NCBI GenBank assembly: GCA_035546775.1
Contig: DASZWD010000071.1
Span: 1 to 50,779, forward strand
Reading direction: 5' to 3'
From: Acidimicrobiales bacterium
Lineage (GTDB): Bacteria; Actinomycetota; Acidimicrobiia; Acidimicrobiales; JACCXE01
DNA length: 50,779 bases
Shown here: piece by piece, positions 23,308 through 29,692 of the stretch
Numbering within the stretch: position 1 is the stretch's first letter
How the letters are laid out: each line of letters opens with the position of its first letter
Translations under genes and position numbers: made by a program
The notes under the pieces: model-generated
Seen by the model: the letters and a program-made list of their open reading frames with translations, nothing else
Databases searched by the model: none
What the model was told of the DNA's origin: nothing

Positions 23308-23990
23308 CGGCTCCAGTGACCGTCCCCGTCATCGTCCGCCACGGCAAGAGCGAACTGGCGCTGCACTGCGTGCGCCCCGGTGAGGGTCCCACCGCGCTCG
23401 TGCTGCACGGACTCGCCGAGAACGCCCTCGGGTGCGTGCTGACTCGCCAAGTCGTCGAAGGCTGGCCCGGCGGCGCGGTGTGGGCGCTCGACTTCCTCGG
23501 CCACGGCGAGTCGACCCGTCCTCCCGGCGGCGGCTACACCGCCGAGACGCTGATGGCCGACGCCGACGCCGCCCTGCGCCACATCGGCCCGGCGACGGTG
23601 ATCGGTCGCGGCCTCGGCGCCTACGTGGCGGTCCTCATCGCCGGGGCGCGGCCCGATCTCGTCCGCGGTGCGGTGCTGTGTGACGGGCCGGGGCTCAACG
23701 GTGGCGGTTCGAATCCGGCGTCGCCCGTCGTCGTCCAGCCCAAGACCAACGACGCGCCCAAGGGTGCGCCCGACCCGTTCGCGCTGGCCGAGCTGTCCCG
23801 CGACGTGCGCCCGCCCGACTACGTCGCCAACTTCCTGCGCCAGGTGCTCGCGCTGTCGTCCCTCGACACGCCGATCACCGTGGCCGCCATCGCGCGCCCC
23901 GAGTGGCTCGAGGCCATCGTCGACCAGCCGGGTGTGCAGGAGGCCTCACTTGCGGACGCGATGAGCCTCTACGGAATCGTGAACGAGTAG
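23304..23990 (+). CDS. Alpha/beta-hydrolase-fold protein lacking the nucleophile
   Basis: This is a 228-residue protein of the alpha/beta-hydrolase fold. ALVLHGLAENA, DFLGHGESTRPPGG and a helix after the elbow are all recognisable, so the fold is clear. At the elbow, however, the sequence is VIGRGLGAYVA: the GxSxG serine is replaced by Gly (G103). No His follows in the C-terminal part (EWLEAIVDQPGVQEASLADA), so the catalytic His is also missing. It is shorter than usual. The gene is coupled to the intact hydrolase by a GTGA overlap, which suggests a non-catalytic partner or a decaying duplicate. It overlaps the convergent deacetylase by 22 nt. Confidence 0.8.
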   Translation: MTAPVTVPVIVRHGKSELALHCVRPGEGPTALVLHGLAENALGCVLTRQVVEGWPGGAVWALDFLGHGESTRPPGGGYTAETLMADADAALRHIGPATVIGRGLGAYVAVLIAGARPDLVRGAVLCDGPGLNGGGSNPASPVVVQPKTNDAPKGAPDPFALAELSRDVRPPDYVANFLRQVLALSSLDTPITVAAIARPEWLEAIVDQPGVQEASLADAMSLYGIVNE

Positions 23991-25060
23991 CCCTCGGCGC
24001 GCAGCCGGTCGATCAGACCGGGCAACTGGGCGACGGTCTGGCTGCGATCGCCGCCGCCGTCGTGCATCAGCGCCACGCCGCCGTTCTTGATCGACAGCGC
24101 GATGCGGTTCTGGATCATCTCGGCGCCCGGCTTGGTGTAGTCGCCCGGGTCGACGTTCCACGCCAGCACCCGCATGCCGAGCCGGTGCGCCTCGGCGATG
24201 ATCGACGGCGACGTGTCGCCGCCCGGGCCGCGGTAGAAGCGCGGCGGCGTACCGGTGATCTGCATGATGAGGTTGAACGGGCCGTCGACCTCGGCGAGCT
24301 GATACGGGATCGGTTTCAGGCTCGCCTTCATGTCGTGGTGCATCGAGTGGTCGCACAGCGTGTGGCCTTCGGCATGGATGCGCTGCACGAGTTGGGGGAA
24401 GCGCTGGATCTGGATGCCGATGAGGCAAAAGACGGCCTTGACGTTCTTGGCCTTGAGGATGTCGAGGACCTGGGGCGTCCAGCGCCCGTCGGGACCGTCG
24501 TCGAAACTGAGCAGGACGACGGGTCGGTGCGTCGGCTCGGCCGGGAGCGCCGGCTTGATCACCTGCTCGGGACCGGCGACCTGGCCGGAATACCGTCCTA
24601 CCAACTCGCGCGCCGTGCCGATGGAACCCGGCTGCCACACCTGCATCTCCACGTCGGGCAAGCCGGCCGGCCTGAGCGGCTTCAGCTGTTCCACCACGGG
24701 TTCGACGAAGTCGCGCCCGTTGATAACGGTGATGTGGTCGCCGTTGCCGAGAGGCCGCGTCACCGGCACGTTCTCGTTGTCGATCAGGATGCGCGGCTCG
24801 CGGACCTGATGCGGGACGGGATCGCCCGTGGCGACTGAGCGCATGAACCCGACGCGCAGCTGGAGGCCGGCGGCCTCGATGGCGTCCTGCACCGTGGCGT
24901 TCGTCGTCGCCAGCTGGATGCGCTTGCCGTTCACGGTGACGCGCATCGCCGACGCGTGCGCCGGCGCCACCGGCCACAACAGCGCGATGGCGCCGATCGC
25001 CACCGTTGCCCTTGCCACGTGCAGGGCGCCCCTTCGGCCCACGTCGTCCTTGCTCCCCAT
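23969..25060 (-). CDS. Exported polysaccharide deacetylase with DUF348/G5-like N-terminus
   Basis: This 363-residue exported protein has a signal peptide (TVAIGAIALLWPVAPAHASA). Residues 39-75 (VTVNGKRIQLATTNATVQDA) resemble DUF348, and 118-165 (VEQLKPLRPAGLPDVEMQV) resemble a G5 domain, the pair found in cell-wall proteins such as RpfB. Residues 180-363 form a NodB deacetylase: LSFDDGPD (D187, D188), DHSMHHDM (H238, H242 as metal ligands), RGPGGD (R277) and ALMHDGGGD. It should remove acetyl groups from peptidoglycan or another glycan at the cell wall. The start ATG has no strong ribosome-binding site; a TACGCT hexamer lies 16 nt upstream. Confidence 0.88.
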   Translation of the reverse strand: MGSKDDVGRRGALHVARATVAIGAIALLWPVAPAHASAMRVTVNGKRIQLATTNATVQDAIEAAGLQLRVGFMRSVATGDPVPHQVREPRILIDNENVPVTRPLGNGDHITVINGRDFVEPVVEQLKPLRPAGLPDVEMQVWQPGSIGTARELVGRYSGQVAGPEQVIKPALPAEPTHRPVVLLSFDDGPDGRWTPQVLDILKAKNVKAVFCLIGIQIQRFPQLVQRIHAEGHTLCDHSMHHDMKASLKPIPYQLAEVDGPFNLIMQITGTPPRFYRGPGGDTSPSIIAEAHRLGMRVLAWNVDPGDYTKPGAEMIQNRIALSIKNGGVALMHDGGGDRSQTVAQLPGLIDRLRAEGYSFTIP

Positions 25061-25116: not shown

Positions 25117-26352
25117 TCAGCGGCGCAGGAGGTCCTTGGCGATGTGAGTGATCTGGATTTCGTCGGTGCCCGCGTAAATCTGCAGCACCTTGGCGTCGCG
25201 GGCGAGCTGCTCGACGTGGAACTCGGACATGTAGCCGTTGCCGCCGTGCAGCTGGACGGCCTCCATCGCCACTTCGACCGCGGCGCGCGCCGAATACAGC
25301 TTCATCGCGCTCGCCTCGGCCAGCGTGAGACCGCGACCCGCCGCGCCCATCTCCATGAAGCGGAACACGAGGTTCTGCACGTTGAGGCGCGCAACCTCCA
25401 TCTTGGCCAGCTTCTCCTGGATCAGCTGGAACTCCCCGATGGGCTGGCCGAACTGCACGCGGTTCTTGGCGTAGTCGATGCACTTCTCGAGGCACATTTC
25501 GATGATGCCGAGCGACATGGCAGCGACGCCGGAGCGCTCCATCGAGAACGTGTCCTTGGCGCCCGAACGGCCACCACCGGGAATGTCCTCGGTCTCGCCC
25601 AACAGACGGTCCTTGCCGCAGCGCACGTCGTCGAGGAACAACTCCCCGGTCGGCGACGAATGCATACCCATCTTGCGCAGCGGCTTGGACTGCGTGAGGC
25701 CCGGCATCCCCTTGTCGAGCACGAAAGTCAGCACCTTGCGCTCTTCCGGCGGGTTGCCTTCGTCGAGCTTGCAGATGAACACGATCGTGTCGGCGTAAGG
25801 GCCATTGGTGATGAAGGTCTTCGAACCGTTGAGGACGTACTCGTCGCCGTCGCGCCGCGCCGTCGAACGCATCGAACCGAACGCATCCGAACCCGAGCCC
25901 GGTTCGGTGATCGCCCACGCACCGACCTTTTCGAGCGTCAGCAGGTCGCGGGCCCAGCGCTTCTTCTGCGCCGTCGTGCCCTTCGACATGATCGCCGAGC
26001 CGGTGAGGCCCACCGACACGCCCATAGCGGTGATCATGCCGGGGCAGTAGCGGCAGATCTCAATGATCGGCAGCATCATCATGGCGTTGCCCCCGCCGCC
26101 GCCGCCGGACTCCTCGTCGTCTTCCAGCGTGAGCGGCTTGGGCGCTTCGCCCGCTTCCTCCTTGGCGATGCGGCGGTCGAAGCCGGCGGCGGCCATGGCA
26201 TCCATGCCGAAGGTCTTGAACATGAGACGCAGCACGTCGTAGGGCGGCGTGTCGCCGTGTTCGAGTTCGTCGCGGCGCGGCGCGATCTCCTTCTCCACGA
26301 ACTGACGCACCGCGTCCTTGATCATCTTCTGCTCATCGGACCACTCGAACAT
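25117..26352 (-). CDS. Acyl-CoA dehydrogenase
   Basis: This 411-residue FAD enzyme oxidises an acyl-CoA to the trans-2-enoyl-CoA. The FAD/substrate motif AWAITEPGSGSDAFGSM and the ending QIYAGTDEIQITHIAKDL are typical. The base found at this C-terminal site in medium-chain enzymes is Ala here (A394). Instead E272 in FSMERSGVAAMSLG aligns with the helix-G glutamate used by isovaleryl- and long-chain dehydrogenases, so the enzyme should be active. A Gly-rich acidic insert (DDEESGGGGGGNAM, 78-91) is unusual. The ATG is 8 nt after a TAGGTT hexamer that overlaps the stop of the preceding gene. Confidence 0.92.
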   Translation of the reverse strand: MFEWSDEQKMIKDAVRQFVEKEIAPRRDELEHGDTPPYDVLRLMFKTFGMDAMAAAGFDRRIAKEEAGEAPKPLTLEDDEESGGGGGGNAMMMLPIIEICRYCPGMITAMGVSVGLTGSAIMSKGTTAQKKRWARDLLTLEKVGAWAITEPGSGSDAFGSMRSTARRDGDEYVLNGSKTFITNGPYADTIVFICKLDEGNPPEERKVLTFVLDKGMPGLTQSKPLRKMGMHSSPTGELFLDDVRCGKDRLLGETEDIPGGGRSGAKDTFSMERSGVAAMSLGIIEMCLEKCIDYAKNRVQFGQPIGEFQLIQEKLAKMEVARLNVQNLVFRFMEMGAAGRGLTLAEASAMKLYSARAAVEVAMEAVQLHGGNGYMSEFHVEQLARDAKVLQIYAGTDEIQITHIAKDLLRR

Positions 26353-26360
26353 GGGCCGGA

Positions 26361-26366
26361 AACCTA
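26361..26366 (-). promoter_or_regulatory. -10 hexamer TAGGTT of the acyl-CoA dehydrogenase gene
   Basis: On the minus strand TAGGTT is followed by 8 nt and the ATG at 26352. Its first bases are also the TAG stop codon of the upstream kinase/oxidoreductase gene. Confidence 0.45.
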
Positions 26367-27707
26367 GTGGTTGAAGGCGCCGATCACGCGGCCGAACGCC
26401 GCCACGTCAGCGGCTGTCGGCTCGCCGCGGAAGTTGACGATGGCGGTGTGCACGCCCGCATCCGCGAGACCGGCGTAGTGCGGAATCGGATCGGCTGTGG
26501 GTGCCACGGTGCCGAGGTGCGTCACCTCGATCGTCGATGGGTCGCGCCCGACCGCCGCGCAGTGGGAGTGCAACACCGCGAGCTTGCGCCGCAGCGTCGC
26601 AGCGTTGCCGAAGAGATTGCACGCGTCGGCGTACTGCGCCACCAGTCGCAGGGTCTTTCGCTCGCCGGACCCACCGACGAGGATCGGGATGCGCTCCTGC
26701 ACCGGACGTGGGTAGCTCATCGCTTCGGGCACCTCGATGACCCGCCCGGTGAATGCCGGCGCGCCCTTGCCCCACATGAGCGGCAGCAGTTGGAGGGCGT
26801 CTTCGAGCAGCGCGTAGCGCTCCCGCAGCGGTGGGAACGCGAAGCCGTACGCCGCGTGCTCGCGCTCGTACCAGGCGGCGCCGAGACCCGCGATCGCCCG
26901 GCCTTCGGAGAGCACGTCGAGGGTCGCGATCATCTTGCCGAGCAGGGCGACGTTGCGGTACGTGATGCCGGTGACGAGCGCACCGAGGCGCACCCGCGTC
27001 GTCACCCCGGCGAGGAAGCCGAGGGTCGTGTAGCACTCGAGGATGTCGTCCCACTCGCGGCCGGCTTGTGGGATCTGGATGAAGTGATCCATCAAGAACA
27101 TGCTGGAAAAGCCGGCGTCCTCGGCGGCCACCGCGACGTCTCGCAGCGCCCCGGCGCGGCTCCCCTCCCAGCCGTGACGCGGCAGTTGCAGTCCAAAGCG
27201 CAGCGCTGTCTCGTTCGCGGCCCGTCGCCGCAGCGGCGCCGGCTCGTGGAATACCGAGTCGTAGCCTTCGGCGTCGAGCAACGGCAGCACGCGGGCGAAG
27301 TCCTTCAGCTGCTTGTTCAGGATCGGCGCGGGCACGGGCGTGGCGCGAGCGCGGTTGCGGCTTTTGCACGTCGCCGCGTCGGTAGGGAAGGCGATGGCCA
27401 CGCACGTCACGCCAGCGGCCCGGGCGAAGTCGCGGTAACGCTGCCGGCTGGCGTCCTCCAGCGAAGTGGCGTCGATCACGGTGAAGAGTCCGCGGGCCAA
27501 TCGACGCTGCACGATGTCTTCGAGGACGGCGAAGGCGTCGGCGCTGGCTTGTTGGTCGAAGGCCGACTCCCCGACCTGCGCCCGCAGCGCGTCGCTCGAG
27601 ACGATTTCGCCCGGCTCGCAGTTCTGCGCCGCCCACGTCGACTTGCCCGAACCCGATACGCCGACGAGCACGACCAGGCACGGCGTCGGGACACTGAGCG
27701 CGGTCAC
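26364..27707 (-). CDS. P-loop kinase fused to an F420-type luciferase-like oxidoreductase
   Basis: This 447-residue protein has two domains in one unbroken frame. Residues 1-165 are a P-loop NTPase of the polynucleotide-kinase-like AAA_33 type: Walker A GVSGSGKST (16-24), SSDALRA, VIDATSLEDASRQRYRDFA and the lid segment SRNRARATPVPAPIL. Residues 170-447 are a luciferase-like monooxygenase-fold domain of the F420-dependent group: FGLQLPRHGWEGS, FLMDHFIQIP, LGALVTGITYRNVALLGKM, GLGAAWYEREHAAYG, IPILVGGSGERKTLRLVAQY. The second domain is close to the TIGR03560-type family. It probably binds F420 and ATP; how the two activities relate is unknown. GTG 27707 is preceded by TACCGC, a near-consensus hexamer, 7 nt upstream. 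Confidence 0.85.
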   Translation of the reverse strand: MTALSVPTPCLVVLVGVSGSGKSTWAAQNCEPGEIVSSDALRAQVGESAFDQQASADAFAVLEDIVQRRLARGLFTVIDATSLEDASRQRYRDFARAAGVTCVAIAFPTDAATCKSRNRARATPVPAPILNKQLKDFARVLPLLDAEGYDSVFHEPAPLRRRAANETALRFGLQLPRHGWEGSRAGALRDVAVAAEDAGFSSMFLMDHFIQIPQAGREWDDILECYTTLGFLAGVTTRVRLGALVTGITYRNVALLGKMIATLDVLSEGRAIAGLGAAWYEREHAAYGFAFPPLRERYALLEDALQLLPLMWGKGAPAFTGRVIEVPEAMSYPRPVQERIPILVGGSGERKTLRLVAQYADACNLFGNAATLRRKLAVLHSHCAAVGRDPSTIEVTHLGTVAPTADPIPHYAGLADAGVHTAIVNFRGEPTAADVAAFGRVIGAFNH

Positions 27708-27754
27708 GTCAGGCGCGGTACCAGAGAGTCAGACCGTCGCCCACGGGCGCAGCT

Positions 27755-29692
27755 TTACGCGTTCACGACCACCGCGACGGAATCTTCGGCGCCAAGGGTC
27801 ACCACCGTCGACTTCGGCGGGTTGAGCACCACCTCGCCACTGGCGGCGACGCGGTAACCGAACACCGACATCGCCTGTCGCCCACCCGCGGCGACGACTG
27901 CCCCGAACGGCAACGCCTCGGCGGGCACCAGGGCGTTAGCCGGGCGCATCTCGATCACCGCGCCCTCGGCGTCGAAGAAGTCGTCGAAGACCGGGAGCAA
28001 CGCCGGGTTCTCCGACAGCTGCGCCATCAGCAGGCTCGCGAGGGCGTTGCTGACGATGAGGTCGTCCACACCGACGGGCACGGCGAGCGCGAGGTTCTGC
28101 TGGTCGAGCAGCTCGGCGACGATCCGCACACCGTGATCGCCGTTGGCCGGCCACTGCGATCGCAGCGCCAGCAGCGTCACGAGGGTGCGGGCGTCGGCGT
28201 CGTCGACCGACAACGCATCGCGGTAGCCGAGCACGATGACGCGCTTGGGTGCGCCGTCGGCGAGGGCGTGGAAGTCGTCGGGCCCGCCATCGCCGACCGT
28301 GACGGTCAGGGTGGCGTTGGTCAGCGCCACCGTGTCGAGCTCGGCGCCGTCGACCAGTTCGCCGTCGACCACGACCGTCACCCGGGACTCCGGTGGCAGG
28401 AACTCGTCGAGCTCGCGCAAAACGGTGTGACCGAACCGGCTCCAGCCGACGAGCACCACGTCGAGCGGCGGCCGAGGCCGTGCACCCGTAGCCGGCACCG
28501 CCGGGGCGTCGTATGCCTGCACCCCGGTGAAGGCCACCGCCGAGTCGTCGGCCGCGACCAGGATCAGCTGGTCGTCGACGGCCAGAACCGTGTCGGGCGC
28601 CGGGTTCAACTCCACCTCCCCCGTCGCCCGCATGCGCCCGATGACGCTCGACGCCTCGAAAGCCACGAGCGCCTCGGCGTACGTGCGGCCCGCCAGCTGC
28701 GGCACGGGCGTGAAGTAGATCTCGTCGCCGGCGAAGTCGAGCAAGTCGCTGAACACGGCGGCGAGGCCCGGTTGCAGGCACGCCTGCGCCGTGACCTCGG
28801 CGACGACTTCGTCGCTGCACACCGTAAGCACCCGCCCGTCGGTGGCATCACGAATGATGCGCGCCGTGTCGCCTTGGGCCAGTTCGGCAACGACGTGGGT
28901 GTCGAGCAGACCTGGATCGACGGCGCGCACCGCCAGGATGGCCTTGACCACGCCGGCGTCGCCGTCGGTCCCGCGCACCACGATGATGGCGCGCGCGTGG
29001 TGCACCGCGGCGCGCTCGAGATCGGCGGGCGAGCTGGTGCTGCCACTACGGCAGACGAGGCGCGTCGTGCGTGCGTCGCGCACCCGATCGTGCAGCGTCT
29101 CTTCCATCTCGGTCTTGTCGACGTCGGACAGCACGACGATGGCCACGTCGCGCTCGCTGGCGTTCGCCTCCACCAATTCGGCAACGATGCGCGGGACCTG
29201 ATCGGACCAGCCGAGGATGAGCGTGTGGCGCGCTTCGACGACGGTGCTGCGCCCCTTGCGCAAGTCTTCGACCTTTTGGTCGACCGCATTGGCGATAAGA
29301 CCGATCAATGAGCCGGCGAGGAAGATGCCGGCGAGCGTGACGATCAGCGCAACGATGCGGGTGGGCCACGCGGTGTCGGAGGCGAACGAGCCGGAATCGA
29401 GCGTGCGCAGCATCGCCTGCCACAACTCCTCACCGAAGGTGTGCTGCGCTCCGCCGGCGAACGCCAGGTTCGCCACGGTGGCAATGGCCGCGGCGACGAC
29501 GATGACGAGGATGCTCAACGCCGCGAGGTACAAGATCACGACGAGGGGCCCGCGCGCCATGGCGTTGTCGAAGCGGTAACGCAGGCGGGTGAGGAGCGAC
29601 ACGTGTGCCGGCTGCTTCCGCTTCACCGGGCCGGGCGCGGCGTTGTGCATCCGGTTGCGCCGCTGGCTGGCCTTGCTCTGGCGGGCGGTCAT
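27755..29692 (-). CDS. CASTOR/POLLUX-like ion channel with RCK/TrkA-N domains
   Basis: This 645-residue membrane protein has a basic cytoplasmic start (to about residue 45) and two hydrophobic segments (LVVILYLAALSILVIVVAAA and RIVALIVTLAGIFLAGSLIG) flanking a pore-like stretch (TFGEELWQAMLRTLDSGSFA). A first Rossmann/RCK unit starts at HTLILGWSDQVPRIVAELVE, and a second at VVLVGWSRFGHTVLRELDEF. This layout matches the bacterial relatives of plant CASTOR/POLLUX (DUF1012) channels, which are cation or calcium channels in plants. Ion choice here is not predictable. GGAGG lies 12 nt before the ATG, within the short gap after the SDR gene, suggesting co-transcription. Confidence 0.87.
   Translation of the reverse strand: MTARQSKASQRRNRMHNAAPGPVKRKQPAHVSLLTRLRYRFDNAMARGPLVVILYLAALSILVIVVAAAIATVANLAFAGGAQHTFGEELWQAMLRTLDSGSFASDTAWPTRIVALIVTLAGIFLAGSLIGLIANAVDQKVEDLRKGRSTVVEARHTLILGWSDQVPRIVAELVEANASERDVAIVVLSDVDKTEMEETLHDRVRDARTTRLVCRSGSTSSPADLERAAVHHARAIIVVRGTDGDAGVVKAILAVRAVDPGLLDTHVVAELAQGDTARIIRDATDGRVLTVCSDEVVAEVTAQACLQPGLAAVFSDLLDFAGDEIYFTPVPQLAGRTYAEALVAFEASSVIGRMRATGEVELNPAPDTVLAVDDQLILVAADDSAVAFTGVQAYDAPAVPATGARPRPPLDVVLVGWSRFGHTVLRELDEFLPPESRVTVVVDGELVDGAELDTVALTNATLTVTVGDGGPDDFHALADGAPKRVIVLGYRDALSVDDADARTLVTLLALRSQWPANGDHGVRIVAELLDQQNLALAVPVGVDDLIVSNALASLLMAQLSENPALLPVFDDFFDAEGAVIEMRPANALVPAEALPFGAVVAAGGRQAMSVFGYRVAASGEVVLNPPKSTVVTLGAEDSVAVVVNA

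Follow-up and report, generated by a model that had tools for sequence, protein, structure and literature searches.

The window, that is, the whole 50,779 nt stretch of Acidimicrobiales DNA that was analysed, carries on its minus strand a fusion gene at 26364..27707 (447 aa, GTG start at 27707, stop codon at 26364–26366), the product of which joins an AAA_33 kinase to a TIGR03560-type luciferase-like (LLM) oxidoreductase. It is followed on the same strand by an acyl-CoA dehydrogenase gene (25117..26352) that begins 11 bp past the fusion stop, and it is possible that these two genes are co-transcribed in the window. Further along lies a gene for a polysaccharide deacetylase that has a DUF348 domain at its N-terminus (23969–25060, minus strand), and directly upstream of the fusion is a Castor/Pollux-type channel gene with Castor_Poll_mid and TrkA_N domains (27755–29692, minus strand). 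An open reading frame of 496 aa on the plus strand (26367–27857) overlaps the same bases as the fusion gene and was taken for its shadow, the gene being GC-rich. The GC contents at the three codon positions are alike in the two halves (0.68/0.51/0.88 and 0.71/0.50/0.88) and in the flanking genes.

All parts of the protein described below are read from the minus strand. The kinase domain at residues 11–139 (27291..27677) scores 104.3 bits with AAA_33 (cut-off 27), and in the second half Bac_luciferase is matched at residues 184–406 with 133.4 bits (cut-off 27.9) and TIGR03560 at residues 186–396 with 255 bits, above the NCBI curated cut-off of 231.4. The earlier note had claimed a P-loop kinase joined in frame to an F420-type LLM enzyme and had proposed a search of both halves against domain databases; with AAA_33, Bac_luciferase and TIGR03560 all matched and both domains far over the curated cut-offs, this claim stands. 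The LLM domain, delimited by profile matches and by the tree, covers residues 169–447 (26367..27203), and the two domains are connected by a linker at about residues 155–168 (27204..27245). Measured between the best-matching segments, the linker of the window copy is 5 aa, compared to mostly 15–33 aa in the other fusions. The LLM half also has a shortened variable segment at residues 399–417 (26457..26513), the distance from 398 to 418 being 21 aa with a fusion median of 53. The LLM domain had been called full, which is slightly generous for a copy with so short a linker and only 21 aa in the 398–418 segment. The loss in this segment need not kill the enzyme, since several stand-alone LLMs also have 21–24 aa there.

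In a first draw of 99 genomes, its own and 98 relatives, a search with the kinase half matched 19, and a full in-frame fusion was found in 7 of the 98 others with a local tblastn identity of 46–56% (50–59% in the alignment). A later search with a kinase-half profile covered three overlapping draws at differing thresholds and matched 53 genomes in the order draw (n = 397), 32 in the class draw (n = 296) and 40 in the phylum draw (n = 396). Fusions were counted among the returned loci that were inspected, so that the counts are lower bounds, and with the own genome and repeats included in each draw there were 23 intact fusions in the order, 28 in the class and 10 in the phylum; the other 10 inspected loci of the phylum draw (L102–L111) are kinases without an LLM. 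Together, and counting the genome of the window, the draws yield at least 55 distinct genomes that encode the two halves in a single frame, in the same domain order in all 55. According to the labels of the search tool itself, these genomes span 21 families of Actinomycetota, of which 12 belong to the order, 5 to the remainder of the class and 4 to the remainder of the phylum. Among the 55 are two copies that are cut short, L050 by a contig end and L097 in the LLM half, and the count leaves aside L053 and L077, where the kinase lies at a contig end, together with L092, L093 and G046. Broken or partial copies occur as well, G046 having an internal TGA and L092 its halves in different, overlapping frames. 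When 44 of the 55 members were scanned, all matched both Pfam families and TIGR03560 with E ≤ 1e-5 (L037 scores 260.5 with TIGR03560), a consistency check since members had been picked by matching both halves. A scan of named genomes with one short Walker A pattern confirmed at least 6 loci, with one fusion among the matches listed, in an Acidimicrobiia MAG (JAOTZB010000278.1; 48% identity over residues 11–446). Among plasmids 239 records match, none of them covering 80% of the protein. The fusion is dispensable, since just 23 of the 397 genomes in the order draw showed an intact copy among the inspected loci.

The fusion is thus real, a single protein made up of a P-loop kinase and an F420-type LLM enzyme. 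A chimeric contig, a read-through or a pseudogene might be suspected from the reduced C-terminal LLM segment of the window copy, but the same architecture in 54 other genomes, the uniform codon-position GC over the join and the intact active-site residues leave an artefact of this kind with next to no probability. The in-frame fusions in the 54 further genomes also exclude the case, considered in the earlier note, that the halves are separate genes in every relative and were joined here at residues 165–170.

In the LLM tree a branch with SH-aLRT 100 puts the 55 fusion halves on one side and 29 stand-alone LLMs from 11 genomes on the other, and none of these 29 kinase-less LLMs falls inside the fusion clade. 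In a first kinase tree the window row was placed beside very long branches; in a tree rebuilt after removal of eight distant rows (L024, L025, L027, L030 and L033–L036) it lies among the fusions, and 24 Pnkp-type rows split off with a branch support of 100. The fusion label still needs two changes on the kinase tree because L093, a degenerate kinase on its own, is placed within the fusion group. This protein of 189 aa (G581:C25) has lost D39 and R42, with no LLM attached to it or detected in the locus, and is most simply read as a decayed descendant of the fusion kinases. The distances in the two halves correlate with a Mantel r of 0.55 (a value that none of 999 permutations reached; n = 53 with the two early-ending copies omitted), a moderate value that is expected if the halves travel together at different rates and that is no proof against any exchange. 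The trees and distances point to one old fusion that has been kept across distantly related actinobacteria.

The kinase half belongs to the AAA_33/polynucleotide-kinase-like kinases, having a Walker A motif with its lysine, a D-x-x-R motif and the lid arginines. In the Walker A motif GVSGSGKS at residues 16–23 (27639..27662), G16, G21 and K22 are found in 55 of 55 fusions and residue 23 is S or T, and W25, D39, R42, D51, R69 and D79 are equally invariant. D39-x-x-R42 (27582..27593) should provide the putative general base and an acceptor or phosphate contact, and the lid residues R117, N118 and R121 (27345..27359) are present in 52, 54 and 49 of the 55 fusions, respectively. The suggestion that the kinase half is not dead is well supported by these counts, and judged from its residues it keeps its active site; the kinase is under selection, given that the catalytic positions are invariant. 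The nearest solved kinase is the kinase domain of Clostridium thermocellum Pnkp (4gp6), which aligns over residues 4–154 with E 1.6e-22 (further PDB relatives are 4gp7, 4jst and 4mde) and has in common with the fusion kinase the Walker A motif, D39, R42, D79, R117, N118 and R121. K21, D38, R41, R116 and R120 of this enzyme, which we take to be its catalytic set, match residues of the fusion kinase, and the roles given above for D39 and R42 come from there. One of the PDB matches (u67808) carries asparagine at the matching aspartate position.

The term polynucleotide-kinase-like, used in the earlier note, is apt with regard to descent and active site, the best PDB match being the CthPnkp kinase, but the fusion kinases form a separate group and the diagnostic changes relative to Pnkp mean that an RNA or DNA acceptor should not be assumed. 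Two positions past the Walker A serine, all 55 fusions have W and all 24 Pnkp rows have F, and D-A-T-N/S, found in 23 of 24 Pnkp rows, is mostly D-T/S-L/T-G in the fusions, where only the main classes are meaningful as the pattern misread some fusion rows. The window copy is the exception in that it retains D-A-T-S, residue 80 being A in 1 of 55. From these differences we infer that the acceptor of the fusion kinases has changed. A filing under bacterial Pnkp (TIGR04075) was rejected, the score being 129 bits against a cut-off of 750 over positions 2–154 of 851 only, and the tree separates the two. A nucleic-acid enzyme, with a kinase for the 5'-OH of RNA or DNA and a reductase for nucleotides or ends that are modified or damaged, would account for the closest solved relatives being the kinase domain of C. 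thermocellum Pnkp and that of mammalian PNKP and for the retained D-x-x-R acceptor motif. We regard such an enzyme as improbable, as the kinase branches apart from Pnkp (support 100) with the F to W and D-A-T changes and falls far short of the TIGR04075 cut-off, the phosphatase and ligase domains of Pnkp are missing, and the redox half resembles LLM enzymes that act on small molecules.

In the redox half D207 and H208 (27084..27089) are present in 55 of 55 fusions and in 29 of 29 stand-alone LLMs, H208 being by analogy with other F420 LLM enzymes the probable active-site histidine, and S267, G269-R270 and E283 are likewise shared with all 29 stand-alone LLMs. Stand-alone members of the TIGR03560 (Rv1855c) subfamily lack the kinase, and other positions set the fusion clade apart from the 29 stand-alone LLMs: W219 (27051..27053) and Y332 (26712..26714) are invariant in the 55 fusions and found in 0 of 29 stand-alone LLMs, G315 is present in 55 of 55 versus 1 of 29, and G313 in 50 of 55 versus 0 of 29. 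By these residues the fused redox half is a distinct LLM subtype with its own conserved sites, which possibly belong to a substrate pocket or an interface. Mer (8qpl, 1z69), FGD1 (3b4y, 5lxe), a hydroxymycolic acid dehydrogenase (9fp4) and a secondary alcohol dehydrogenase (1rhc) are sequence matches to the LLM half, but the scores lie far under the equivalog cut-offs for Mer (NF002619, 48 of 276 bits) and for FGD (TIGR03554, 43 of 420 bits), and a filing as FGD was rejected on this low score.

An AlphaFold2 model of the relative L037 has a pLDDT of 93.9 and a pTM of 0.91, the linker being predicted with high confidence to form strands and a helix, and this typical relative is thus predicted to be one rigid two-domain unit. 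In structure comparisons the L037 model matches LLM enzymes best, among them the F420-dependent Mer, FGD and secondary alcohol dehydrogenase, which align with 18–22% identity. For the window protein the model gives a pLDDT of 94.0 and a pTM of 0.75, in line with the shorter linker, and by its lower pTM, short linker and reduced C-terminal LLM region the window copy may differ from the rest of the family. The rigid coupling predicted for L037 would also suit a kinase half that serves as an NTP sensor for regulation or as a clamp in the structure, where binding or hydrolysis of NTP opens or closes the redox site and no phosphorylated product is made. A pure sensor needs no general base, however, and the conservation of D39 and R42 equals that of the Walker A lysine (55 of 55), which makes a purely regulatory role unlikely.

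The surroundings of the fusion were compared all against all for the window and 20 other fusion loci of 8.6–14 kb. In these 20 loci no neighbours recur beyond those shared by near relatives (L118/L119, L120/L121 and L131/L132), and neither the channel gene nor the acyl-CoA dehydrogenase is found beside the fusion, so the fusion enzyme seems to work as a stand-alone gene. The neighbours, showing no shared pathway, would fit two unrelated activities on one polypeptide, with the fusion merely keeping a kinase and an oxidoreductase co-expressed, and there is a precedent in FbiC, where, in the part of the F420 review that we draw on, the two fused domains seem to act independently, by diffusion (PMC8498797). 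Against this stand the order of the domains, kept in all 55 proteins, the ordered linker in the L037 model and a fusion clade in which none of the 29 stand-alone LLMs is found, and we consider independent activities fairly unlikely.

The host itself should make F420, since CofD/FbiA, one family of the biosynthesis, is over its cut-off in the genome of the window (G000) with E 3e-98. Of the fusion genomes, 52 were examined for this protein (all but G456, G532 and G891), and 50 have a strong match, 48 over the cut-off and 2 just under, while the other two have weak matches. There is no enrichment of CofD with the fusion, as 48 of 51 genomes of the order that lack the fusion are also strong, and the association therefore says nothing specific. 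The ribityl 5'-OH of FO is chemically like a nucleoside 5'-OH, and the kinase half might phosphorylate the deazaflavin itself at this hydroxyl, or another cofactor precursor, and so supply the fused redox half with an F420-like cofactor of its own. Such a supply is less needed in genomes that probably make ordinary F420, as 50 of the 52 do, and we think it very unlikely. The genome of the window (3.7 Mb) has a large LLM repertoire, with about 20 further LLM-type matches (22 in total, of which one is the fusion and one has an internal stop).

The reading that we prefer, and which we are about equally ready to believe or to doubt, is a bifunctional enzyme with its halves in a fixed arrangement, one adding a phosphate to a small metabolite and the other transferring a hydride to this compound or away from it. 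The N-terminal half would be an NTP-dependent kinase of the polynucleotide-kinase/AAA_33 type acting on a hydroxyl of the metabolite, and the C-terminal half, of the TIGR03560 type, would use F420(H2) for the hydride transfer, either ahead of the phosphorylation or following it, and the fixed arrangement of the domains would let the product of one half reach the other. The compound might be phosphorylated and then oxidised, as when a sugar kinase is paired with a later FGD-like step, or a carbonyl might be reduced and the resulting alcohol trapped as a phosphate. We infer that both halves are active, that the substrate is shared and that the cofactor is F420 rather than FMN, the last because of the TIGR03560 membership and of a host that makes F420; the two chemistries probably serve one pathway.

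To our knowledge TIGR03560 enzymes have no assigned substrate. The F420 review, in the part consulted, counts other LLM-type enzymes of Actinomycetales among those without a known role (PMC8498797). No paper on a kinase-LLM fusion was found by title or abstract, in a search that covered few subscription journals, and the parts consulted of this review and of a paper on the evolution of F420-dehydrogenases (PMC6279831) make no mention of a fused kinase. Both domains are already known and the joined architecture may be visible in public domain databases. A fusion retained over much of the phylum is a strong functional clue for the TIGR03560 redox clade, and from its conservation it is probable that a phosphate is present on, or added to, the substrate, the product or the cofactor of these enzymes. 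The open problem of assigning TIGR03560 thereby narrows to the kinase and F420 activity of one protein. For stand-alone LLMs, the TIGR03560 match on two Halocatena marina plasmids (H5 and H6) continues into a gene with the annotation L-rhamnonate dehydratase, possibly a hint at sugar-acid chemistry.
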